Source: a virus
Strand: one strand, 5' to 3'
DNA length: 22,978 bases
Virus record (IMG/VR): IMGVR_UViG_3300042887_001998
Coordinates: 1 to 22,978 of that record
Shown: in pieces, positions 1 to 20,336 of the stretch
Position numbering within the stretch: the stretch's first letter is position 1
Layout of the letters: the number at the start of each line of letters is the position of its first letter
Translations under genes and position numbers: made by a program
Notes under the pieces: model-generated
Told to the model about the DNA's origin: nothing
Database searches by the model: none
Seen by the model: only the letters and a program-made list of their open reading frames with translations

Positions 1-204
1 ATTAAGTCTATGCGAACGTTCGGAGGAAAGGACGGCAGTCGTCAGCGGGCACAAGAGTTGTTCCCGGATTACGCCCATCTCTTCGCACGGAAAAAGGACG
101 ATGGCCGAGCCGAAGCTGCGCTTCTTGCCTGCTACGCCGCTGAGAGGGAAGACAATGAACCACCTATTCGATTACCAAAAAGTCGGCGCAGACTTTCTTT
201 GTAA
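1..204 (+). CDS. RuvC-like Holliday junction resolvase, C-terminal fragment (partial)
   Basis: The frame is open from the first base of the window and ends with TAA at 202-204, so only the last 67 residues are visible. The segment KDGSRQRAQELFPDYAHL followed by KKDDGRAEAALLA is typical of the end of phage RuvC-type resolvases, where the aspartates of the KKDDGRA motif contribute to the metal-binding RNase H-like active site. Such enzymes cut four-way junctions during phage recombination or before packaging. The end overlaps the helicase start by about 50 bases, which suggests the two are co-transcribed. The N-terminal catalytic residues lie outside the window, so the family call rests on the C-terminal motif alone. 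Confidence 0.6.
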   Translation: MKSMRTFGGKDGSRQRAQELFPDYAHLFARKKDDGRAEAALLACYAAEREDNEPPIRLPKSRRRLSL

Positions 205-3201: not shown

Positions 3202-5105
3202 TTCCGATACCTCTTTCCTTCTTTGCCCTCGGCGTTGATCGGGCAGCCTTGCGCCCATGCAGGAACTTGTGTCATGATGTCAATCATTTCGTCAAGCGAA
3301 CCAAAACCATCCGGCACTTCGCTAATGATTTCATCGTGTACGGACAGGATGACATTGTAGCCTTTAAGTTCCAACGCCATCATGGCCGTGGCCATCAGGT
3401 CGCGGGCGGTTGCTTGCACCACGTTCTCCGTCAACAGGCCACCCCAGATTATCTGGGATGTCCACTGACGCGTAACGCTATTCAACGTATCGACTTGCGC
3501 TGTATCTCTCATCGCACCCCAAGGAGTTTCACGCTGAATGATGCGCGGATTGTGGTACGTAAGCGACCGCCCGCTAGGTAGTGGAAGCGGAACCGTCCCA
3601 ACACGGCCTGCCCCCTTCACCATCTCTACAAAATCTTGCTCAACATCTCGCCAGTACTGCGCGATCCTGTGGTTCTTTTCACGGTAGACAGCCACGATGC
3701 GCTTAGCTTCGTCCTCGTCTACCTTGATACCCATCGTGGCGCACTGCTCGGCGAAGCGTTTGCCGCCCATGCCGTAGCCGCAACCCAAGATTGCCATCTT
3801 ACCAACCTGCCGTTGTCCGTCAGTGACGCTCTCCACGTCCACGTTGTAGATGGCCGATGCCATTTCTTTATACACGTCTCCCCCCTTTCGGAACGTCTCA
3901 ACGAGATCGTTCTGCCCTGCTACCCACGCAAGAACGCGGGCTTCAATCGCCGAGTAGTCGGCGAACATCAGTCGATGGCCGTCGTCGGCTATCAGCATCG
4001 AACGCAACAGGTCGGACGCCAGAACCGTTCCGGCCCCATGCTCCGACACATCCTTGTCCGCTTTGAGTTTGGCGATGATCTCGTCCAACTCGTGTTGTTT
4101 CTTTTGCGGACGTGGGAAGTTCTGCGGCTGCACCAGCTTGCCCGACCAGCGGCCAGTTGCCGCGCCGTGATAAACAAGAAGGCCGCGCATCCGTCCGTCC
4201 GCGTTAACCGCGTGCAGCATCGCGTCGTACTTGGCTGTACTGGACTTGGCTCCGTTCTGCCGAAGCAAAAGAACTTGACGGATTACTGGGTGCAGTTTGT
4301 CTGAGGTCAACAGCCGGGCGACGGTCTGCTTGTCAACAGACTTGGTGGCAATCCCGTGGCTGTTAAGCCAAGCAACTAAGTCCATGCCATTTGTCGCGGC
4401 CTTGACTTGGCCTTTGGTAAGGCGTTGGATTTCTGCGTCAATTTCTACGCTGGCATTTCCGGCCAGTGCTTTGACGCGATGCACTAGGTCAACGTCGAGG
4501 GCCACGCCTCGGTCGTTGATGCGTTGGTCAAGCTGATAGAGACGACGCTCAGCGTCGGGCATTGCGTTCAAGACTTCCGCGACAGACAGTTCCGTCCGCA
4601 CGTCCTGTCGGCAATAAGCGACAAGCGCCTCAATCTTACCCTTCGTGTTCCACCATGTGTAACTGCCGTCGGCGTTCACCTTACGTGGCCGTGCCATCCG
4701 GAGCATAAGGGCCGCGCCGGTCTTGTCCTTCTGTTCTTCAACGCCAAGGACCGCAGCCGCTTGGCCCAGTGCACGAGGCAGCCCCATCGCGCTGGCCTGC
4801 GCCATTGTGCAGCGCCATTGATTGATGCGGGTGTCGGGCCACTGATAGCGGCCAACCATGATCTCGTTCCAGATCGTGCGTTCAAAGTTGGCGTTCCATG
4901 CGGACAGCAATCCGCCCGCCCTGATCCAATCTTCTAGATAGGGGTCTACCGCATCGCCCGGCTGCCATACTAGCACGTCGTCAGACCACGGGGCCTTGTA
5001 TGCCATGCACCAGATGTCAGTCGATTGGTCAGCGGCGTACTTATAGACGCCAGTCTTGCGAAGATCGACGGCGCTGCGCGTCTCGAAGTCAATTGATACA
5101 GTCAC
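3198..5105 (-). CDS. Family A DNA polymerase with 3'-5' exonuclease domain
   Basis: A replicative phage polymerase of about 635 residues. The proofreading domain shows ExoI SIDFET (D6, E8), ExoII WNANFE (about 70-75) and ExoIII YCRQD (about 164-168). The polymerase domain shows the TGRWSG template motif (about 317-322), motif A DYSAIEAR (383-390), motif B/O-helix RQVGKMAILGCGYGMGG (432-448) and motif C LSVHDE with HDE at 590-592. All catalytic residues are present, so it should be active. No ATG exists at the 5' end. The GTG at 5105 is chosen because it makes a GTGA overlap with the stop of the upstream methyltransferase-like gene and has GGGG just upstream; another GTG at 5117 is possible. 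Confidence 0.93.
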   Translation of the reverse strand: MTVSIDFETRSAVDLRKTGVYKYAADQSTDIWCMAYKAPWSDDVLVWQPGDAVDPYLEDWIRAGGLLSAWNANFERTIWNEIMVGRYQWPDTRINQWRCTMAQASAMGLPRALGQAAAVLGVEEQKDKTGAALMLRMARPRKVNADGSYTWWNTKGKIEALVAYCRQDVRTELSVAEVLNAMPDAERRLYQLDQRINDRGVALDVDLVHRVKALAGNASVEIDAEIQRLTKGQVKAATNGMDLVAWLNSHGIATKSVDKQTVARLLTSDKLHPVIRQVLLLRQNGAKSSTAKYDAMLHAVNADGRMRGLLVYHGAATGRWSGKLVQPQNFPRPQKKQHELDEIIAKLKADKDVSEHGAGTVLASDLLRSMLIADDGHRLMFADYSAIEARVLAWVAGQNDLVETFRKGGDVYKEMASAIYNVDVESVTDGQRQVGKMAILGCGYGMGGKRFAEQCATMGIKVDEDEAKRIVAVYREKNHRIAQYWRDVEQDFVEMVKGAGRVGTVPLPLPSGRSLTYHNPRIIQRETPWGAMRDTAQVDTLNSVTRQWTSQIIWGGLLTENVVQATARDLMATAMMALELKGYNVILSVHDEIISEVPDGFGSLDEMIDIMTQVPAWAQGCPINAEGKEGKRYRK

Positions 5106-5704
5106 AGCGCACCCCACTGATCCGCCATTGCAGCGGCGATACCCTTAAACGTAGTGCTGCGCAGTTTCCACCTATCGGCAGATGGTGGCAGATAATGAAG
5201 ACGCTGGCGCTGATTATCCGGCAGCGCCATCATTGCTTCTTTGACGTTATCCGTCGGCACTAGAGGTGGAAGGTTCTTTAGCCATAGACAGGTCGCTTTC
5301 TGTTCCATGTGACCAAACATCCACGGCTGGATGGTCTGGGCCTGTTGCATACCGCCGATCCGTTCTTTGGCGTATTTGTGCATCACTGGGTTCTCAATGG
5401 CGATGCGCTTGATTGGCACATCCCAAAGAGCCTTAAAGAAAGCAGCGCCTTCATCTAGTTTGGCCCAGCGTGTTGGGTCTTTGTGCAGCCAAGTAACCCC
5501 AGCGTTGGTCAAGTAAGTGCAGGGTGGGTGGGCTATCATCAAATCCCAATCATGCCCATGCGCAAGCACAAGAGCGTCACCTTGGATATGCCAATGCGGA
5601 TCACCGTCCGTCGGCAACAGGTCACACGACCAAGCGTCGTGTCCTTTAGCCCGGAAAGCATCTCGGACTGTTGCGCTGTACTCGCAAGCCACTAGAATTT
5701 TCAT
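5102..5704 (-). CDS. Short C5-cytosine-methyltransferase-like protein
   Basis: A 200-residue protein resembling the SAM-dependent Dcm-like fold seen in many phages. CEYSATVRDAF (7-17) occupies the position of the SAM-binding motif I, AHPPCTYLTNAG (58-69, PPC at 60-62) matches motif IV with the catalytic cysteine, IAIENP (102-106) resembles the motif VI ENV, and NQRQRLH (164-170) resembles the QxRxR of motif VIII. It is much shorter than typical C5 enzymes and has little room for a target-recognition domain, so specificity, or even activity, is open. It is the first gene of the leftward replication operon, with an AGAGGGAAAG ribosome binding site, and diverges from the regulator at 5840. Confidence 0.6.
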   Translation of the reverse strand: MKILVACEYSATVRDAFRAKGHDAWSCDLLPTDGDPHWHIQGDALVLAHGHDWDLMIAHPPCTYLTNAGVTWLHKDPTRWAKLDEGAAFFKALWDVPIKRIAIENPVMHKYAKERIGGMQQAQTIQPWMFGHMEQKATCLWLKNLPPLVPTDNVKEAMMALPDNQRQRLHYLPPSADRWKLRSTTFKGIAAAMADQWGAL

Positions 5705-5839
5705 GCTGTTCTTTCCCTCTTTTTCGTCGGTGTCACGTTTGCTTTCCGTATAGCTGGCACAAACAGCATAGTGTCGTCAACAAAAAAAAGTTCTTGCGTT
5801 CGATATTCAAACTGTGCCACCCAAGAAGGGCATCAACAA
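5705..5839. promoter_or_regulatory. Divergent regulatory region between the two replication operons
   Basis: These 135 bases separate the leftward methyltransferase-polymerase operon from the rightward regulator-primase operon, so they must carry promoters for both unless transcription enters from outside. They are AT-rich in the middle, with a run of eight A. I do not see a -35/-10 pair with good spacing on either strand: the best leftward candidate, TTGACG with TATACG, has a 22-base gap. The regulator encoded at 5840 is a natural candidate to bind here. Confidence 0.4.
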
Positions 5840-6622
5840 ATGAGGGAGTTTATGTCTAACAGTTTTATGCCGTGGCGCGCCGAAGAGGACGCTACACTCA
5901 CCGAACTTTACCATAAGAATCTGACATACGCGCAGATCGGGGAGGTGCTTGGCCGTTCTGCCGATGCAGTTGATACTCGGCGTAGAAAGATAGGGCTGAA
6001 GCGGGAGTTTGTTTCCCATAAATCGCCACCGCCAGATGACTTACGGGAGTTGGCGCGCACTATGAATGTGTCGCAACTCGTTAAACATTATGGCCGGATT
6101 AGGTCAGTGGTCGTTCGTTGGATGGACGAACTTAAACTTACGGAGATTGTTGTCAGTTCAAGCGGAAGAAAGCGGTCTGTTCCGGATACCTTCTGCACGA
6201 TGGCCCCGACCATGACATGCGCTCAACTTATGCGTCTGTACGGCAGCGACCGCAGAACGATTAAGGGTTGGCTTAAAGAGACGGGAACCGTCGCTGTATC
6301 AAAGACGGAACGATACGCCGAGGTAACTAAGTTCGTCCCAGCCGATACAGAAGAAGAGGAGACGGTCGCTCGGCGTGAGTTCTCCAGCCACACGAAACTG
6401 ATCGCGGCTGAAGCTGCGAACTTTCTGCGCCGCACGCACCCGTCGGTCCATCGTGCGGACATACGGATGTACGAGCAATCGGCCCACACATGGGGCGACG
6501 TTAAGAACGTACCCTTCCGGGGCGTCAATCAGTATTTTGTTTCAGGGAAAGGCATCATGTGGATCGACGATCTCATTGCCTATGCTCAGTCAAAAGGGTT
6601 TACAATCAAGGAGTTAATATAA
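5840..6622 (+). CDS. GcrA/Myb-like DNA-binding regulator with three helix-turn-helix segments
   Basis: A 260-residue basic protein. Residues 10-54 (MPWRAEEDATL...LTYAQIGEVLGRSADAV) form a SANT/GcrA-like helix-turn-helix of the kind common in alphaproteobacterial regulators. Residues 68-100 and 117-149 are two further copies of a second unit with the shared pattern TM-x3-QL-x3-YG-x5-(V/I)-x2-W, each probably another DNA-reading helix pair. As the first gene of the rightward replication operon it is a good candidate early regulator or origin-binding protein; that is inference. The start at 5840 has AAGAAGGG upstream. ATG 5852 with GAGGGAG only 3 bases away is the alternative. Its stop overlaps the next start (TAATG). 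Confidence 0.65.
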   Translation: MREFMSNSFMPWRAEEDATLTELYHKNLTYAQIGEVLGRSADAVDTRRRKIGLKREFVSHKSPPPDDLRELARTMNVSQLVKHYGRIRSVVVRWMDELKLTEIVVSSSGRKRSVPDTFCTMAPTMTCAQLMRLYGSDRRTIKGWLKETGTVAVSKTERYAEVTKFVPADTEEEETVARREFSSHTKLIAAEAANFLRRTHPSVHRADIRMYEQSAHTWGDVKNVPFRGVNQYFVSGKGIMWIDDLIAYAQSKGFTIKELI

Positions 6623-7033: not shown

Positions 7034-7255
7034 ATGGACAAAGTAAGATGGACCGATGATGAACAAAAAGTGGAGTTTATTCCAGTATTCATCCTCGGTT
7101 TTGAAGAAGAGTTTGAACGCGGCGTAATACTAACGACGCCTGCGTATAAGATATTAACCGACGCCGAACCTGAGTTTGCGCTCTACGCCATCGACGCGGC
7201 GGTAGATATGCTGATGCAGAGACGGGACCAAATTGAAAAGAGGGAGTTGCACTGA
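7034..7255 (+). CDS. Small hypothetical acidic protein, 73 aa
   Basis: A 73-residue acidic protein that I do not recognise. Predicted order: charged N-terminus, hydrophobic strand VEFIPVFILGF, acidic EEEFERG, then a C-terminal helix (ALYAIDAAVDMLMQRRDQIEK). No membrane segment long enough to span a bilayer. GGGGGG precedes the start by 6 bases, and the stop overlaps the primase start as TGATG, so translation is coupled to the primase-helicase. A small partner of that enzyme is conceivable but cannot be shown here. Confidence 0.65.
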   Translation: MDKVRWTDDEQKVEFIPVFILGFEEEFERGVILTTPAYKILTDAEPEFALYAIDAAVDMLMQRRDQIEKRELH

Positions 7256-12301: not shown

Positions 12302-13165
12302 TTATCCTACTACAAATCCGGATTGATCTTTACGGGCCTTGCCCTTGGCGTATAGTGCCACAATAACGCCCTTAGGCTCTAAGTGCCTAATGTCGCTATT
12401 GTCACCGTCAACGACGGGAAGGCCTAAAAACGTTTCGCCATTGGCCAGCATTGCGTCAACGATTGATCGATCACGAAAAACAACCGCGATCCGTTCACCA
12501 TTAGCAACGGCCTTAGCGACATAAGGCGCATAATCAGGCACGCCGCTATAGCTAAACGTTAGATCATAATTAGCCGGTATATGCTTACGGTTAGCGATCT
12601 TTGTATAATCATAAAATTGGATATCTGGTAAAGCTTGCATAATGTTAGCGTAAGCATAGCCGAGACCAACGTTTTCCCAACGAATATCGCTTGTACCGTT
12701 AAGCCTAACTATAAGCTTATAGCCTTTACGCTTGGCTTTAGCGCGCTCACGGATCAATTCATTATGCAATTGATTCATGAAAAGATCGCGGTACTGATTA
12801 AAATATAACGTCTTACGCAAACGCGAAAGCATAACGTTTGACATTGCGCCGCGCCCTGCCGTGAATAGGCAGGCTTTTTCGCAACCGGCGGTTTTCGCCA
12901 TTGGGCACAATTGCACGCCCGATTGCATTGCGGGCATAAGATACAATATGGCGGTTTTGATCCCGTATTTTTCGCCTTTAATTGTTTTGGCGTTAGTGTC
13001 GATCCCTAAGAGCTTTTCCGGAAAGCGACTAAACAACGAACGATTGTGAGCGTCGCCTAATATCTGCAATTGGATATCAAGCGCCAAGCCGGATATATCA
13101 TACGCAAGCGCCGCGTCACCGAACGATTGGTTATAAGCGAACGGGTGATTAACTAAGTGTAACAT
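12302..13165 (-). CDS. GP88-like protein
   Basis: A 287-residue protein resembling the GP88 family (named from an actinophage gene product). Visible marks: LYLMPAMQSGVQLCPMAKT followed by GCEKACLFTAGRG (four clustered cysteines about residues 85-100), a basic helix with RERAKAKRKGYK, then VRLNGTSDIRWE, FYDYTKI, LTFSYSG, and a final VDGDNSDIRHLEP. The alternating strand-helix order suits an alpha/beta barrel-like fold, and the cysteines could bind metal. The biochemical role of the family is not known to me. AAGGGAGAATAAA supports the start at 13165. Its codon use is AT-richer than the replication genes. Confidence 0.6.
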   Translation of the reverse strand: MLHLVNHPFAYNQSFGDAALAYDISGLALDIQLQILGDAHNRSLFSRFPEKLLGIDTNAKTIKGEKYGIKTAILYLMPAMQSGVQLCPMAKTAGCEKACLFTAGRGAMSNVMLSRLRKTLYFNQYRDLFMNQLHNELIRERAKAKRKGYKLIVRLNGTSDIRWENVGLGYAYANIMQALPDIQFYDYTKIANRKHIPANYDLTFSYSGVPDYAPYVAKAVANGERIAVVFRDRSIVDAMLANGETFLGLPVVDGDNSDIRHLEPKGVIVALYAKGKARKDQSGFVVG

Positions 13166-13280: not shown

Positions 13281-13738
13281 TTGATAGTCCCTCTATTGTT
13301 GCTACCTGATTGCCAATAGGAACAGCGTGCCGGTTCAGTCAATGACTAAATTGAAAACAATTGTAAACAATATAATATAACGCAACCGGCACAGCATGCC
13401 GGTTTGAGAAGGGAAAAACGGATCGCCGGGCCTCCGTTTTCGCGTGCCTCCGACGCTATCTGGTCCAGCACTAATACACTGTTACACCCTGAAACCCGCA
13501 GGATTGCGTGGTTTTTTGGGTATGGAGCCTGAAATGGCCTTTCGATCTGACCCCCCCGGCCCCCGCCGCGCACGGGGGGCGTGTGTGTACAACCTGACAG
13601 ACATGGAGATGTGGCCCCCACCCCCCTATACCCTTGTATTTAACATAATCCTGTCCAAAAAATTCCTAACTTTTTCGCTTGCCAAGTTGTAACATTAGAG
13701 TGTAACAGCGATGGACAACAAAAAACGGGAGAAATACG
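13281..13738. promoter_or_regulatory. Divergent intergenic region upstream of GP88 operon and recombinase
   Basis: These 458 bases contain no convincing gene. A weak leftward promoter candidate is TTGACT (13342-13337) and TATTGG (13318-13313) with an 18-base spacer. An AT-rich core at about 13347-13380 follows. TGCCGGTT occurs at 13328-13335 and 13397-13404 and inverted at 13384-13391. Homopolymer C and G tracts lie at 13551-13626. TGTAACA-type boxes at 13688-13694 and 13701-13707, plus an inverted partner at 13479-13487, lie before the recombinase. Operators and a recombination site are both possible. Confidence 0.45.
13384..13404. repeat. Perfect 8-base inverted repeat AACCGGCA/TGCCGGTT
   Basis: The arms 13384-13391 and 13397-13404 are perfect complements around the five bases CAGCA. 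A third copy of TGCCGGTT, with the same ACAGC flank (ACAGCRTGCCGGTT), lies in direct orientation at 13328-13335. There is no T run, so it is not a terminator. A binding site for the XRE protein or a recombinase site is possible. Confidence 0.6.
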
Positions 13739-14419
13739 TTGGCAGTTTATGGATACACACGCGTCTCGACTGAAGACCAGATCGAGAACACATCGCTCGA
13801 CGATCAAGCACGCCAAATCCAAGGCATCGCGCTCACACATAATATGGAACTAGACCATATCTACGAAGAGCGGGGCGTCTCCGGCGGCGTTCCGCTGCTA
13901 CGCCGAGAAGAAGGTTGCAAGCTGGCGTTCCTCCGGCCGGGCGATACTGTCATCGTATCGAAGCTAGACCGTATGTTCCGCGATGCGCGGGACGCACTAA
14001 ACGTGATTGCCGACTGGGAGGGGGCCAACATCAACCTAATCATCAACGGCTACGGCAATGTGATGGACAAGGCCAACCCGAACGGACGCTTCATGCTAGA
14101 GATCATGGCCGTCTTCTCTGGTGAGGAGCGCCGCCGTATCAGAGAACGTGTCACCGCCGGTAAGAGGGCCAAGAAGTCACAAGGTGGATATGTCGGTGGC
14201 AAAGTGCCATTCGGCTTTAAGAAGTCAGGCACAGGCCGCAAGGCCAAGCTGCACCCAGAGCCAAACGCGCAGGACGCGCTAATAACAATGAAAGCCGCAC
14301 GCGTTAAAGGTCATAGCTACCGCGATATTGCTATTATCGTAGCAAAGCGTCATGGTATATCCGTTAGCCATCAAACAATCGCACGTGTAATCAGGGGAGA
14401 TAAGAATGACGAAATCTGA
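13739..14419 (+). CDS. Serine recombinase (resolvase/invertase family, TTG start)
   Basis: A 226-residue site-specific recombinase. The N-terminal catalytic domain has YTRVSTEDQ with the nucleophile S10 and R8, the KLDRMFRDARD motif (R78, R81) and the E-helix region FSGEERRRIRERV. From about 150 it has a short 'Recombinase'-type segment (GGKVPFGF, then a helix-turn-helix around YRDIAIIVAKRHGISVSHQTIARVI), so it is longer than resolvases but far shorter than large serine integrases. The start is TTG with GGGAG 7 bases upstream; no in-frame ATG would keep the catalytic segment. It overlaps the large terminase by 14 bases. It could move the adjacent accessory block, resolve genomes, or act in integration. 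Confidence 0.85.
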   Translation: MAVYGYTRVSTEDQIENTSLDDQARQIQGIALTHNMELDHIYEERGVSGGVPLLRREEGCKLAFLRPGDTVIVSKLDRMFRDARDALNVIADWEGANINLIINGYGNVMDKANPNGRFMLEIMAVFSGEERRRIRERVTAGKRAKKSQGGYVGGKVPFGFKKSGTGRKAKLHPEPNAQDALITMKAARVKGHSYRDIAIIVAKRHGISVSHQTIARVIRGDKNDEI

Positions 14420-15815
14420 GCCGAACTTCTTTTTGGAGTTCCTGAAGAAGTACCGCGATGATCCCGTCGGGTTCGTGCGCGATATCTTAAGGACTAAACC
14501 GGACCCGTGGCAAATCGAGTTTCTGAAAGCGATTAGTTCTGGCGAACGCCGTATCTCCGTCCGCTCAGGCCACGGTGTCGGTAAGTCTACAGCCGCAAGC
14601 TGGGCCATGCTGCATTACTTCCTAACGCGCTATCCGGTGAAAGTTGTCGTGACTGCGCCGACATCCGCACAGTTGTTCGATGCGATGTTCGCGGAACTGA
14701 AGCGATGGGTGAATGAACTGCCCGAAGTGCTGAAGGTTCTGATCGAAGTCAAGGCCGACCGTATTGAATTGAAGGCCGCAGCCAGTGAAGCGTTTATCTC
14801 CGCCAGAACGAGCCGCGCTGAAACGCCGGAAGCGTTGCAGGGTATCCACGCCGACAACGTGCTGCTCGTCGCCGACGAAGCGTCCGGTATTCCAGAGAGC
14901 GTGTATGAAGCTGCGTCCGGTTCTATGTCGGGCCACAACGCGACGACGCTTCTTCTGGGTAACCCTACGCGAAACAGCGGTCTGTTCTACGATACGCACA
15001 ACCGTCTGAAGGGCGAATGGAAAACCTTCCACGTTAGCTGTCTCGACAGCCCACGCGTATCCGATGCGTTCGTTCGAGAGATGCAGTTGCGATACGGGGA
15101 AGACAGCCCGGCGTATCATGTGCGTGTCCTCGGTAACTTCCCGCCGCGTGAAGAAGATACCGTCATCCCTGTCGAGTTGATTGACAGCGCCATGAACCGC
15201 GAGATTAAGATCGCCAAGCAGACGAAGAGTGTGTGGGGCTTGGACGTTGCGCGTATGGGGTCGGACGCTTCCGCACTCGCCAAGCGGCGCGGCCCGGTTG
15301 TAGAGGAGATACAGACTTGGAAGGGTCTGGACCTGATGCAGCTAACCGGCGCAGTCGTGGCCGAGTTCGAGGCGCTTGTACCTTCCGAGCAGCCAGTCGA
15401 GATATTGGTCGATAGTATCGGGTTAGGGGCAGGTGTTCTTGACCGTCTGCGCGAACTGGGCCTGCCAGCACGCGGGATCAACGTGGCGGAAAGTCCTGCG
15501 ATGAAAGGGACTTACGCCAACCTACGCGCCGAATTGTGGTTCAAGTGTAAGGGGTGGCTGGCGAACCGTGACGTAAAGATACCGAAGGATGAGCAGTTGT
15601 TCGCCGAGTTGGCGTCGCCGCGCTACACCTTTACCTCGTCGGGTAAGATGCAGGTGGAGAGTAAGGAAAGCATGAAGAAGCGCGGACTTCCGTCACCAGA
15701 TAAGGCGGACGCGCTTTGCCTGTGTCTGGCCACCGATATATCGACGATCATGCACGGATACTCGATGGCCAACAAGACGGGGGCCTTAAAGCGGAACATC
15801 AAGGGTGTTGTTTGA
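14406..15815 (+). CDS. terL: Terminase large subunit (ATPase-nuclease)
   Basis: A 469-residue packaging motor. The ATPase domain shows Walker A RSGHGVGKST (53-62), Walker B VLLVADEAS with D157 and E158, and the coupling motif LLLGNPT (182-188). The RNase H-like nuclease domain shows LDVARMGSD (D280), LVDSIGLGAG (D336) and SPDKADALC (D432, D435). All catalytic residues are in place. It fits the short, Sf6-like branch that pairs with the small subunit at 10351. GGGGAG lies 7 bases upstream of the ATG, inside the end of the recombinase gene. The small-subunit gene is unusually distant and on the other strand. Confidence 0.95.
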   Translation: MTKSEPNFFLEFLKKYRDDPVGFVRDILRTKPDPWQIEFLKAISSGERRISVRSGHGVGKSTAASWAMLHYFLTRYPVKVVVTAPTSAQLFDAMFAELKRWVNELPEVLKVLIEVKADRIELKAAASEAFISARTSRAETPEALQGIHADNVLLVADEASGIPESVYEAASGSMSGHNATTLLLGNPTRNSGLFYDTHNRLKGEWKTFHVSCLDSPRVSDAFVREMQLRYGEDSPAYHVRVLGNFPPREEDTVIPVELIDSAMNREIKIAKQTKSVWGLDVARMGSDASALAKRRGPVVEEIQTWKGLDLMQLTGAVVAEFEALVPSEQPVEILVDSIGLGAGVLDRLRELGLPARGINVAESPAMKGTYANLRAELWFKCKGWLANRDVKIPKDEQLFAELASPRYTFTSSGKMQVESKESMKKRGLPSPDKADALCLCLATDISTIMHGYSMANKTGALKRNIKGVV

Positions 15816-15839
15816 CATAAGCCAATGATGTGTTATATT
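15812..15839 (+). promoter_or_regulatory. Strong sigma70-type promoter
   Basis: A perfect -35 box TTGACA (15812-15817) and a 5/6 -10 box TATATT (15834-15839) are separated by 16 bases. The -35 box overlaps the last codon and stop of the large terminase. The predicted start of transcription, about seven bases after the -10 box, is the first base of the hairpin at 15846. It is the best consensus promoter I see in the window. Confidence 0.75.
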
Positions 15840-15845
15840 TCTTTT

Positions 15846-15967
15846 GCCCGGCAGGTTTCTCCTCTCCCTCTCCCTGCCGGGCGACTGAGGGTGTGCGCGG
15901 CTAGGCCGGTAATAGCGACGAGACGATGTGGCTCCTTCGTTTAGAACGCCGCCACCCTACTTTTTTT
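15846..15967 (+). ncRNA. Candidate structured small RNA with anti-Shine-Dalgarno loops
   Basis: About 122 bases bounded by a strong promoter and a run of seven T. The 5' end is a perfect 10-pair hairpin (GCCCGGCAGG 15846-15855, CCTGCCGGGC 15873-15882) with a 17-base, all-pyrimidine loop TTTCTCCTCTCCCTCTC. The 3' part is a long stem, AGGGTG plus GCGGC (15888-15893, 15897-15901) against GCCGC plus CACCCT (15948-15958), with a three-base bulge; its interior contains CTCCTT. The loop complements AGAGGGAG-like ribosome binding sites found before several genes here. The region has no good open frame. It may instead be the leader or attenuator of the downstream virion genes. Confidence 0.5.
15888..15967 (+). 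terminator. Terminator-like stem with seven-T tail
   Basis: Eleven base pairs (6 plus 5, split by a three-base bulge) bring 15888-15901 and 15948-15958 together. They are followed after AC by TTTTTTT at 15961-15967. The loop is long (about 46 bases), so folding kinetics may make termination partial, allowing read-through to the HNH and virion genes. Confidence 0.5.
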
Positions 15968-16015
15968 GCTTTTCTGTAAAGTATAGGCTATATGCCCGTA
16001 ACAGGGAGCGTATCC

Positions 16016-16827: not shown

Positions 16828-18615
16828 ATGCAGCGGCTCCGGACGCGACTGCGTTCAGGCGCTTCCAGCGGTTTCGCGCCCCCGTCATTGTTGCTGGACT
16901 TTACATCTGGTGCGGGTTTTGACAGCCGCATTACGTTCACACGCGGCAGCAATGCCACGCTGGTGGATAGCACGGGCAAGATCACTTACGCTCCGGCGAA
17001 TTTGCTGTTGCAGTCGCAGACGTTTGACAACGCTTCTTGGACTAAAACTGCCGCGACGGTAACGCCCAACGCCACGACCGCGCCAGACGGAACGCTGACT
17101 GCCGATAAACTTGTAGAGGATACTAGCACCTCGCAGCACAGGACTGACCAAACGCCTACATCTCCTGCAGGCGCGCAGACATTTTCTGTTTTTGCAAAAG
17201 CAGCAGAGCGGGCGTTTATGGGGCTACGCATAGGGTCAATAGGTTGTGGATTTAACCTTAGCGACGGAACCACATACGCCCTATCCGCTGGTGTCACCGC
17301 AACCATAGTCTCGGCGGGTGACGGGTGGTATCGCTGTTCAATAAGTGTTTCTTCTGCTGCAGCTAACGATATTTGCCGTATCAATCTGTCACAAACTGCT
17401 GGAACTTTAGCGCCAAGTTACACTGGCAACGGCACATCTGGCATCTTCATCTGGGGCGCTCAACTCGAACCAGTAACCTACCAGACCACCCCGTCCACCT
17501 ACGTCGCCACAACCACAGCGGCATATTACGGCCCGCGCTTTGATTACGACCCCGTCACGCTGGCCCCGAAGGGCATCCTGATCGAAGAGCAGCGGGTCAA
17601 TTTGGTCACGTATAGTGAGCAGTTTAATAATGCTGCTTGGAGCAAGTCAAGCGTCACCGTGACAGCCGACACTACAGTTGCGCCAGATGGAACGACAACG
17701 GCAGATACATTAACAGCCTCAACTGCAGCAGCGTTCACTTGGCAAGTAATTAGTTTTACAGGTGATGGTGACAAAACTATGTCCTGCTTTGTAAAAGCGG
17801 GAACGGCTGCAACGTCGGTTGTGCAAATACGAGATGCCACCGCTGTAGCCAATCGCGGTTATTTCATTATTACATGGACTGCGGGCGTTCCGTCCGTTGC
17901 GCCATTGACTACCGGAACAGTGCTTGGCGTTGATGCGTTTGGCAACGGGTGGTATCGCTTGCGGTTACTAGCGACAGGTGTTGTGGCAGCAAATTCAAAT
18001 CAATATAGGTTTTTGCCTGATACTACTTCTGGAACCGGAACCGTTATCGCTTGGGGCGCTCAGGCTGAGAACGGCTCCTTCGCCACCAGCTACATCCCCA
18101 CAGTTGCCAGCCAAGTAACACGCAGCGCAGACGTTGCGACCATGACAGGCACGAACTTCTCTAGCTGGTATAACGCTGCTGAAGGTAGCTTTGTATTTGA
18201 GGGTTCAACGCAACTTGGAGCAACAAGGCACTTTCTTAACGGGCAGACATCCAATGACCGCTTTTTATCGTCATCCGCCGCAGGCTCTACCGGCATAAGC
18301 GACTTAACAAACTCAGCCGTTGGTGGGATTATTACGGCCAACACCACATTTAAGGCTGCTGTTTCTTACGGATTAGGGGGGTTGGCGGCTTCGCTTAATG
18401 GCGGCACAGCAGGGACAAGCGCGTACAGCGGAGTTTTTGCCTCTGTCAATGAGCTTCAAATTGGTCGGCGTGGGGCGCTTTATATAATCGGCCACATCCG
18501 CTCAATCGCGTACTATAACACGCAACTTCCAAACGCCCAGCTACAGGCGCTGACCGCACCGCAGATGATTACGACACTCAGCCTCGATTTCATCAACGGA
18601 ATATACGACGCATGA
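16828..18615 (+). CDS. Phage spike/fibre protein 1 (two repeated modules plus lectin-like end)
   Basis: A 595-residue beta-rich protein of the type often called 'head spike fiber domain' protein. After an N-terminal segment with FTRGSNATLVDSTGKI (37-52) come two copies of a module of about 170 residues, starting NLLLQSQTFDNASWTK (58) and NLVTYSEQFNNAAWSK (258). Each has an APDGT-x-TAD turn, GWYR and a closing (I/W)WGAQ(L/A)E. They are joined by RFDYDPVTLAPKGILIEEQ. The last 160 residues (HIRSIAYYNTQLPNAQLQAL) resemble a concanavalin-like lectin fold. Likely a receptor- or glycan-binding virion spike. The stop overlaps the paralogous next gene as ATGA. Confidence 0.75.
   Translation: MQRLRTRLRSGASSGFAPPSLLLDFTSGAGFDSRITFTRGSNATLVDSTGKITYAPANLLLQSQTFDNASWTKTAATVTPNATTAPDGTLTADKLVEDTSTSQHRTDQTPTSPAGAQTFSVFAKAAERAFMGLRIGSIGCGFNLSDGTTYALSAGVTATIVSAGDGWYRCSISVSSAAANDICRINLSQTAGTLAPSYTGNGTSGIFIWGAQLEPVTYQTTPSTYVATTTAAYYGPRFDYDPVTLAPKGILIEEQRVNLVTYSEQFNNAAWSKSSVTVTADTTVAPDGTTTADTLTASTAAAFTWQVISFTGDGDKTMSCFVKAGTAATSVVQIRDATAVANRGYFIITWTAGVPSVAPLTTGTVLGVDAFGNGWYRLRLLATGVVAANSNQYRFLPDTTSGTGTVIAWGAQAENGSFATSYIPTVASQVTRSADVATMTGTNFSSWYNAAEGSFVFEGSTQLGATRHFLNGQTSNDRFLSSSAAGSTGISDLTNSAVGGIITANTTFKAAVSYGLGGLAASLNGGTAGTSAYSGVFASVNELQIGRRGALYIIGHIRSIAYYNTQLPNAQLQALTAPQMITTLSLDFINGIYDA
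17537..17604 (+). repeat. 68-base linker repeat, copy 1 (spike gene 1)
   Basis: This stretch encodes FDYDPVTLAPKGILIEEQ and matches 19261-19328 at 61 of 68 bases. It joins the two modules of each spike protein and is the longest near-identical block I found shared by the two spike genes. Confidence 0.85.
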
Positions 18616-20336
18616 CAAACTATACCTTCGACCAGCTTCTCGACTTCACCCGCACCACTGCGGGTTCATTCGTTGACAGCAACGGCCTGATCCAGAACAC
18701 GCCAGCCAGCGTGAACTTGCTGTTGCAGACGCAGCAGTTTGATAACGCTGCTTGGTCGAAGGTCCGGACCACCATAACAGCCAACTCGACTGTTGCGCCT
18801 GACGGCACTTCTACGGCTGACAAATTGGTTGAGGACACGACTGCGTCTAGCACTCATTTTACAAGCCAAAGCGCCAATTACACGGCTGGCACTACATATA
18901 CGCTCAGTGTGTCAGTTAAGGCAGCGGAGCGGAGTTGGTTTGATATTCAACTTCCTGCCGCCCTTATGGGGACAATACGAAACGCTTTCTTTGATGTTAG
19001 TAACGGGACTGTAGGGACAGTAACGAGCGGGGTCACAGCGGCAATCGTTTCCACAGGTAATGGCTGGTATCGCTGTTCGGTTACATTCACGCCTACCGCA
19101 AGCGCGGGCACGGGTTCCGCATTTTTGTTGGCAAATGCTGACAATTCCATTTCCTACACTGGCGACGGCACTTCAGGTTTGTTCCTCTGGGGCGCACAGC
19201 TTGAAGTCGGCAGCACAGCCACCACCTACACGCGCAACAACGGCGGCAGGTTCCCGCCACGCTTTGACTACGACCCCGTCACGCTCCAGCCGAAGGGCAT
19301 CTTGATCGAAGAGCAGCGGGTGAATTTGCTGTTGCGCTCTGAGGAGTTTGACGTTTCATGGACAGGTTTTGTAGCTACAGTTAGCAGCAACGCTGCGGTG
19401 TCGCCTGACGGCACTACTGATGCGGATAAGATTATTCCTGACAACGCTGCGTCTCTTGGAAGTTCCGGCGTAACGCAAACTGTAACCGCCGCCGCTGCCA
19501 CCTACACCTATTCGGTTTATGCCAAAATTGGCGAATATAATCGGGTTCGTCTGCTCGTCCGCGATAGCGCGTCTGCCGCTAATAATGCGTCTGTCATAGT
19601 CTCGCTGGTTGATGGAACAATTACTACTGCCGCCGCCGCTGCCGGTACGTTTACTGGCGCATCCGCAACTGTGATTGCCGCTAAAAACGGTTTCTACCGC
19701 GTATCGTTGACGTTCACATCAACGGGTGCATCTTCCGTGCTGGTTCGCGCATTTGTTGCCGACAGCGTTGCCACAACAGGCGACGGCACATCCGGCATCT
19801 TCCTCTGGGGCGCACAGCTTGAAGCCGGGGCATTTGCCACAAGCTATATCCCCACGGTCGCAAGCCAAGTAACACGCGCCGCTGACAGTTGCGCCATCGT
19901 CGCGCCGATGTTCGCGCCTTGGTATAACCAGAGCGAGGGGACGTTTGTTGTGCAGGCATCTTACGCCGTTGCATCTAACCTTGGCGACCGTTTTACAACA
20001 CAGACCGATGACGATACTGCGAATAACAGGCTGTTGACCACAATTGATACAGGCGCGGTGGACGTCGGCGGCGCAAGGCAGGCAACAATTGACGGCGGCA
20101 CACCTATAGACGGATTACCAAATAAACTAGCCTTTGGCTATAAGATCAACGATTTTGCCGTTTCTCTCAATGGCGCTGCTGTCGTTACAGACACCAGCGG
20201 GACAATACCGACTGTAAATCGCGTTATAATCGGTTCGCGCACTGGCGGCGCGTCGTTCCTAAACGGCCACATCCGCTCCGTCCAATATTACCCCGTCCGT
20301 CTTGCGGACTTCCAACTACAGGCACTTTCAGCATGA
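18612..20336 (+). CDS. Phage spike/fibre protein 2 (paralogue of the preceding gene)
   Basis: A 574-residue paralogue with the same order: a short FTRTTAGSFVDSNGLI entry segment (12-27), module 1 from NLLLQTQQFDNAAWSK (35), the linker RFDYDPVTLQPKGILIEEQ (217-235), module 2 from NLLLRSEEFDVSW (238), then YIPTVASQVTRAAD and a lectin-like C-terminal domain ending HIRSVQYYPVRLADFQLQALSA. The modules close with LWGAQLE as in the first spike. It lacks the first 25 residues of that protein, so only one of the two may carry the virion anchor. ATGA overlaps link it to both neighbours. Likely role: receptor binding; the exact virion position cannot be told. Confidence 0.75.
   Translation: MTNYTFDQLLDFTRTTAGSFVDSNGLIQNTPASVNLLLQTQQFDNAAWSKVRTTITANSTVAPDGTSTADKLVEDTTASSTHFTSQSANYTAGTTYTLSVSVKAAERSWFDIQLPAALMGTIRNAFFDVSNGTVGTVTSGVTAAIVSTGNGWYRCSVTFTPTASAGTGSAFLLANADNSISYTGDGTSGLFLWGAQLEVGSTATTYTRNNGGRFPPRFDYDPVTLQPKGILIEEQRVNLLLRSEEFDVSWTGFVATVSSNAAVSPDGTTDADKIIPDNAASLGSSGVTQTVTAAAATYTYSVYAKIGEYNRVRLLVRDSASAANNASVIVSLVDGTITTAAAAAGTFTGASATVIAAKNGFYRVSLTFTSTGASSVLVRAFVADSVATTGDGTSGIFLWGAQLEAGAFATSYIPTVASQVTRAADSCAIVAPMFAPWYNQSEGTFVVQASYAVASNLGDRFTTQTDDDTANNRLLTTIDTGAVDVGGARQATIDGGTPIDGLPNKLAFGYKINDFAVSLNGAAVVTDTSGTIPTVNRVIIGSRTGGASFLNGHIRSVQYYPVRLADFQLQALSA
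19261..19328 (+). repeat. 68-base linker repeat, copy 2 (spike gene 2)
   Basis: Partner of 17537-17604, in direct orientation 1.72 kb away. Recombination between the two would fuse the front of spike 1 to the back of spike 2 in frame. Confidence 0.85.

Follow-up and report, generated by a model that had tools for sequence, protein, structure and literature searches.

Does the short region between terL and the endonuclease VII gene of this viral DNA (22,978 nucleotides, hereafter the window) encode a small RNA, and if so, which transcripts would its pyrimidine loop address? An initial annotation had proposed a phage small RNA with two anti-Shine-Dalgarno loops that turns early genes down in the late phase. 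The features that bear on this proposal are collected in Table 1.

A conserved RNA unit downstream of terL

The promoter had been described as near-perfect, with the transcription start on the first base of a hairpin. It agrees with 11 of the 12 consensus bases and ranks best among the 7 sigma70-like sites between positions 13000 and 18500, where shuffles lead one to expect 4.7. The predicted start, 7 nt past the −10 box, coincides with base 1 of the hairpin P1; since P1 starts a few nucleotides beyond the −10 box, the predicted transcript begins with it. A second promoter beyond the terminator did not rise above shuffles. The folding energy of the 125-nt stretch (−51 kcal/mol, z = −2.1 against shuffles) is moderately unusual and by itself unexceptional, and the case for the RNA therefore rests on its relatives.

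A TerL search of IMG/VR viral contigs gave 80 loci, 72 of them with a TerL 94–100% identical (group A); one contig (L063) ends too soon and was excluded, which leaves 71 readable loci. All 71 have the promoter, the hairpin and a junction domain downstream of terL, and the terminator is present as well unless the contig ends first (L002, L039). TTGACA is retained across all group A loci, and 46 of 56 distinct loci keep 11 of the 12 consensus bases. The loop varies in length from 13 to 19 nt but is always purely pyrimidine, with the seed CTCTCCCTC constant, while the P1 stems around it differ between relatives (GCCCGGCAGG, GTCCGGCAGG, GCTTGGCGAG, GACCGGTGGG, GTTGCACAAG and others). In a MAFFT alignment of 33 sequences, 9 of the 11 P1 pairs showed changes in both partners and 99.4% of cells were paired, and the whole structure scored above all 500 shuffles and every slid control; in a model-fitted alignment of 47 sequences, which leans towards the structure, the corresponding values were 10 of 11 and 99.2%. 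The perfect 10-pair hairpin with a 17-base all-pyrimidine loop is present at 15846–15882 as initially described, and the compensatory stem changes and the loop conservation on which the initial annotation had staked its proposal were both found. An unpaired core that changes less than the stem carrying it is the hallmark of a pairing seed or of a protein site.

The 3′ part had been read as a second long stem followed by seven T. The seven T are there and are retained in relatives; the stem corresponds more accurately to a three-way junction with a small P4, in which the closing stem P2/P3 doubles as the terminator. Its P6 hairpin is variable (65.9% of cells paired, covarying pairs present), being missing in four loci (L016, L022, L030, L180) and duplicated in another (L183), so that of the two proposed anti-Shine-Dalgarno loops the first is conserved and the second is not. 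In L183 (positions 33–179), the 3′ domain has its apical hairpin twice in tandem, with two occurrences of GACGATGCTGCTCCTTCGT. A likeness of CGGUAAUA to the 530 loop of 16S rRNA was dropped because its GGU is not constant among relatives (GAU, AGU, GUU). No conserved open reading frame was seen in the RNA region, where the loop length varies by single nucleotides, which speaks against a small protein.

Table 1. Coordinates of the predicted RNA, its parts and the proposed target sites in the window (RBS, ribosome-binding site).
Feature	Position	Strand	Remark
RBS GAGAGGGA of SNF2-type helicase (start 155), proposed target	142–149	+	8 nt complementary to loop; family median 8 nt
RBS AGAGGGA of DNA methyltransferase, proposed target	5714–5720	−	7 nt complementary to loop
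RBS GAGGGAG of D5-like transcriptional regulator (start 5852), proposed target	5842–5848	+	family median match 7 nt
RBS AGAGGGAG of primase-helicase (start 7255), proposed target	7239–7246	+	family median match 7 nt, ten genomes
RBS GGGAGA of serine recombinase (start 13739), proposed target	13727–13732	+	GGGAGA in most group A loci
RBS GGGAGA of terL (start 14406), possible target	14395–14400	+	family median match 6 nt
Sigma70-type promoter TTGACA-16-TATATT, TG upstream of −10	15812–15839	+	overlaps terL stop codon; predicted boxes TTGACA 15812–15817, TATATT 15834–15839, 16-nt spacer; 11/12 consensus bases
Predicted small RNA, ~122 nt	15846–15967	+	structured unit kept in 71/71 readable relatives; scores 110.9 bits in the window with covariance model R1
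P1 stem, 5′ arm GCCCGGCAGG	15846–15855	+	covariation (see text)
Pyrimidine loop TTTCTCCTCTCCCTCTC, 17 nt	15856–15872	+	all pyrimidine; seed in 71/71 TerL-selected loci
Invariant seed CTCTCCCTC within the loop	15862–15870	+	
P1 stem, 3′ arm CCTGCCGGGC	15873–15882	+	ten perfect pairs with 5′ arm; covariation
3′ domain, three-way junction	15888–15958	+	fold and covariation on both alignments
P2	15888–15893/15953–15958	+	junction stem
P3	15895–15897/15950–15952	+	junction stem
P4	15899–15901/15905–15907	+	junction stem
Constant TAATAGCG	15910–15917	+	junction
P5	15915–15917/15947–15949	+	junction
P6	15920–15926/15936–15942	+	junction
Second loop TGTGGCTCC with CTCC	15927–15935	+	variable; hairpin dispensable
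T run of intrinsic terminator, T7	15961–15967	+	T run retained in relatives
RBS AGGGAG of endonuclease VII (GTG start 16016), possible target	16003–16008	+	directly 3′ of RNA; family median 6 nt

Sister lineages and the reach of the family

The remaining 8 of the 80 loci (group B, TerL 89–90%) carry a different RNA in the same place, built from a hairpin with the loop TGTCTCCTTTCC and a long terminator, with another hairpin between them. Searches with divergent TerLs added group C (TerL 86–88%), where the RNAs have a hairpin, in most of them with a CTCCTCTCC-type loop, and a long terminator. The junction domain is retained in neither group; only the C/U loops and the terminator are. Differently built RNAs, nearly all with C/U-rich loops and strong terminators, follow terL in L072–L076, L078–L080, L275, L278–L282 and L288–L298, so among the sister lineages position and loop type outlive the fold. 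Searching with the group A covariance model gave a single strong hit per record in nine long group A records and in the window; three group C RNAs were recognised weakly where they were expected (E 0.003, 0.006 and 0.017 in 558 kb), and for this reason the RNAs of groups A and C may be homologous.

Beyond these groups, TerL relatives at 47–63% identity (MW202879, MW202711, phiM5, MW202496, C72C1 and one MAG contig) have no such RNA after terL. In Rfam, searched at curated and permissive thresholds, no family was matched at gathering level, and a single permissive hit (15.6 bits, on the opposite strand) looks accidental; comparing the region with named phages by blastn yielded nothing. In motif scans for the junction and for loop plus junction, all genuine copies with terL in view lie after this terL, and other matches, considered as further RNA copies, look like chance matches in coding sequence. 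The named-phage relatives of TerL, primase and exonuclease indicate no single host, and a TerL scan that covered 84,980 bacterial and archaeal species with one genome apiece returned a single relative, at 63%, on a MAG contig. The conserved promoter, compensatory stems, invariant core and terminator, together with one copy per genome, strongly support the proposed phage small RNA; on this comparative evidence we take it to be real, and as far as these searches reach it represents a new family.

Ribosome sites of early and late genes

We compared fourteen records, the window and thirteen of 29–39 kb, in which genes and their start codons were called mechanically and families were clustered. Genes after terL up to the SNF2-type helicase were taken as late and the rest as early, an assignment made by position and likely function. 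Start regions in group A use AGAGGGAGA-type words and seldom AGGAGG or AAGGAG. In this group, the purine 6-mers found most often before early genes are GGGAGA, GAGGGA, AGAGGG and AGGGAG; all four are complements of the loop and none is a complement of the 16S tail. Before late genes, AGAAGG and AAGGAA are the commonest. Early, replication-type genes thus have AGAGGGAGA-like sites complementary to the core, and structural genes have AAGGA or GAAGG (ten group A-type phages).

Of the 12 early families, 8 had a median perfect match to the loop of at least 6 nt; of the 14 late families, 1 did (Fisher p 0.002; ten genomes). This late family is endonuclease VII, which belongs to DNA metabolism and is encoded immediately 3′ of the RNA. 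By the same test the 16S tail matches 2 of 12 early and 0 of 14 late families, and the group C loop gives the same counts. The strongest matching families are the SNF2-type helicase, primase-helicase, DNA polymerase, D5-like regulator and recombinase. Predicted pairing energies are about −12 to −17 kcal/mol for members of the helicase, primase and D5-type regulator families and about −3 to −4 kcal/mol for structural family 6. Since the late genes of these phages have a motif of their own, a simple host preference is a less likely explanation. Between lineages, the recombinase site differs in the expected sense, being GGGAGA in most group A loci and GAGGAGA or AAGGAGA in most of group C, in which AGGAGA is the commonest early word.

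The loop complementarities quoted in the initial annotation hold for the SNF2-type helicase, the primase-helicase and the methyltransferase (minus strand, above 5704), but the site quoted for a 37-aa peptide was not identified. Its suggestion that the RNA turns early genes down gains indirect support, since across ten genomes the loop core matches the motif of the early-gene sites and not that of the structural genes.

Several neighbouring sites deserve mention. The methyltransferase gene (window 5102–5724, minus strand) is not called in the relative G001, where the DNA polymerase start at that place has nearly the same AAAAAGAGGGAAAGA site, and the ribosome-binding site seems to have been kept through gene gain or loss. 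The site AAGGGAGAATAAA of a GP88-domain gene (PF17338; 12302–13198, minus strand) also fits the loop. In some relatives the endonuclease VII start lies in an inverted repeat, CACAGG...CCTGTG (L010, about 1780–1815), which may hide its ribosome-binding site. Two adjacent related tail proteins, both phrog_5939, are encoded at 16828–20336 and probably reflect a tail-gene duplication.

The specificity of the loop against shuffled pyrimidine loops is modest (p about 0.05–0.1): among permuted loops, 161 of 2000 reached the observed value for early minus late at 6 nt and 91 of 2000 that for the early count at 7 nt. Because early sites are purine-rich, random pyrimidine loops also distinguish the two gene classes, and since shuffled loops do nearly as well, the exact order of the loop adds only weakly to a generic anti-Shine-Dalgarno effect. 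In mean duplex energy, a test generous to G-U pairs and spurious ORFs, the true loop was no better than permuted loops (18% reach its value). Own-loop variants compared with the fixed group A loop gave no within-group signal (5.33 vs. 5.30). Paired co-variation of loop and ribosome site between groups A and C went in the right direction and was non-significant (Wilcoxon p 0.15; groups B and C with two long genomes each), and group B showed no clear preference for its own loop.

Proposed function and alternatives

The RNA has three features expected of base-pairing anti-Shine-Dalgarno sRNAs: its own predicted promoter and intrinsic terminator as conserved sequence features, a conserved unpaired seed on a covarying stem, and complementarity of this seed to the ribosome sites of a coherent gene set, the last with the modest specificity just described. 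On this basis we lean towards a trans-acting phage sRNA that would cover the Shine-Dalgarno region of early mRNAs and so shut off early translation. The RNA unit, the invariance of the seed, the match to early sites and its absence at late genes are read directly from the sequences; transcription, pairing, repression and timing we infer. An RNA of about 122 nt would be made from its own host-type promoter directly after terL; its 5′ hairpin would present the seed CUCUCCCUC in an open loop, and the 3′ domain would provide stability and termination. The loop would pair with AGAGGGAGA-like Shine-Dalgarno regions of replication and DNA-metabolism genes and block ribosome access; structural genes, with their AAGGA or GAAGG sites, would escape. 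As the RNA built up with genome copies, translation would shift from early to late proteins. Because the promoter looks constitutive, accumulation with genome copies would be the simplest timer, or some unseen regulator might act.

Phage RNAs that pair with the Shine-Dalgarno region of a phage gene are exemplified by the C4 antisense RNA of P1 and P7, which acts on one operon; the RNA after terL matches no Rfam C4 model. The UCCC-loop sRNAs of Firmicutes (RNAIII, LhrC) also aim C/U-rich seeds at Shine-Dalgarno sequences but have another seed and structure and differ in host and targets. Lambda 6S RNA and HK022 put are short structured RNAs that head the late region, with a role in transcription antitermination; they share this position with our RNA and have no pyrimidine seed. 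The phi29 pRNA differs in that here an ordinary terminase small subunit is encoded and there is no Rfam match. In the alpha-r14 sRNAs of rhizobia, stems of variable sequence carry constant anti-Shine-Dalgarno loop motifs, and in the case of NfeR1 silencing results from occlusion of the ribosome-binding site (PMC10746234). The likeness lies in the invariant pyrimidine motif in a loop on stems differing in sequence; however, alpha-r14 RNAs have three hairpins with an identical unpaired CCUCCUCCC and are chromosomally encoded, whereas the phage RNA has one conserved loop with CUCUCCCUC, a 3′ three-way junction and proposed targets among the phage early genes. Neither the three CCUCCUCCC hairpins nor a match to an Rfam sRNA model was found. 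T4 RegB, an endoribonuclease, cuts GGAG in early Shine-Dalgarno sequences and thereby inactivates early mRNAs (PMC3014915); the expected outcome, silencing of early genes at a Shine-Dalgarno motif, is alike, but RegB is a protein that cuts and the RNA would pair. The phage RNA is unrelated to both. In a recent review on phage-derived sRNAs, as far as a key-term search of its text reaches, no comparable genome-wide early shut-off RNA is apparent (PMC12197685).

The separation of early from late phage genes by the loop, which the 16S tail does not achieve, speaks against the alternative that the main targets are host mRNAs, or that the RNA is a sponge for host anti-Shine-Dalgarno sRNAs, with the match to phage early sites a by-product of their Shine-Dalgarno-like sequence. 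In its favour, any pyrimidine loop matches Shine-Dalgarno sequences, and permuted loops score nearly as well; rhizobial sRNAs with anti-Shine-Dalgarno loops silence host mRNAs (PMC10746234), and passages of the review name phage and prophage sRNAs acting on host RNAs (PMC12197685). Nevertheless, group A keeps CUCUCCCUC and not CCUCC, the best fit to common Shine-Dalgarno sequences, and we consider such a host-directed role unlikely. The location of the RNA between terL and co-directional structural genes, its conserved structure and terminator, and the absence of a second promoter above chance beyond the terminator would suit a late-operon leader, either attenuated like lambda 6S RNA or acting as an RNA antiterminator like HK022 put, with read-through from a late promoter into the structural genes. 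Such a leader would leave the invariant unpaired pyrimidine core and the early-site match unexplained and shows no similarity to known Rfam elements, which makes it quite improbable.

If the RNA were made from resident phage DNA, it could block the early genes of an incoming relative, as P1 C4 or P4 CI RNA do; the constitutive-looking promoter, targets among early genes needed at entry, and the presence of a short serine recombinase and an HTH_3 protein are compatible with this. A resident state is unlikely because the scan of 84,980 species found one TerL relative (63%, MAG contig), and with no Rfam C4 match superinfection immunity is a very improbable role. The RNA always lies close behind terL, with the seed about 50 nt after the stop, and resembles phi29 pRNA in size and multi-helix fold, which could suggest a packaging RNA working with the terminase. 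Given the ordinary terminase small subunit (phrog_1482), the TerL relatives at 47–63% identity without such an RNA, and the preservation in groups B and C of C/U loops and terminator but not of the junction domain, this is scarcely credible.

Returning to the shut-off of early translation, a broader version, which we offer tentatively and think rather doubtful, is that these phages use two ribosome-site dialects: an early address, AGAGGGAGA, which fits the RNA perfectly and the 16S tail less well, and ordinary late sites, with loop and address co-evolving. In that case the sister lineage would have changed both its loop (CTCCTCTCC) and its address (GAGGAGA), the rest of the RNA being freely rebuilt, and the early-to-late switch would be genome-wide and made by an RNA alone.

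For the change from early to late expression in phages, the usual explanations are polymerases, sigma factors, antiterminators or nucleases. A single sRNA able to silence a whole class of phage genes by way of one Shine-Dalgarno word common to them would offer a simple alternative, easily tested and possibly to be borrowed as an orthogonal translation switch. Since this RNA is absent from Rfam yet occurs in at least 71 viral contigs, RNAs of its kind may be common and overlooked.
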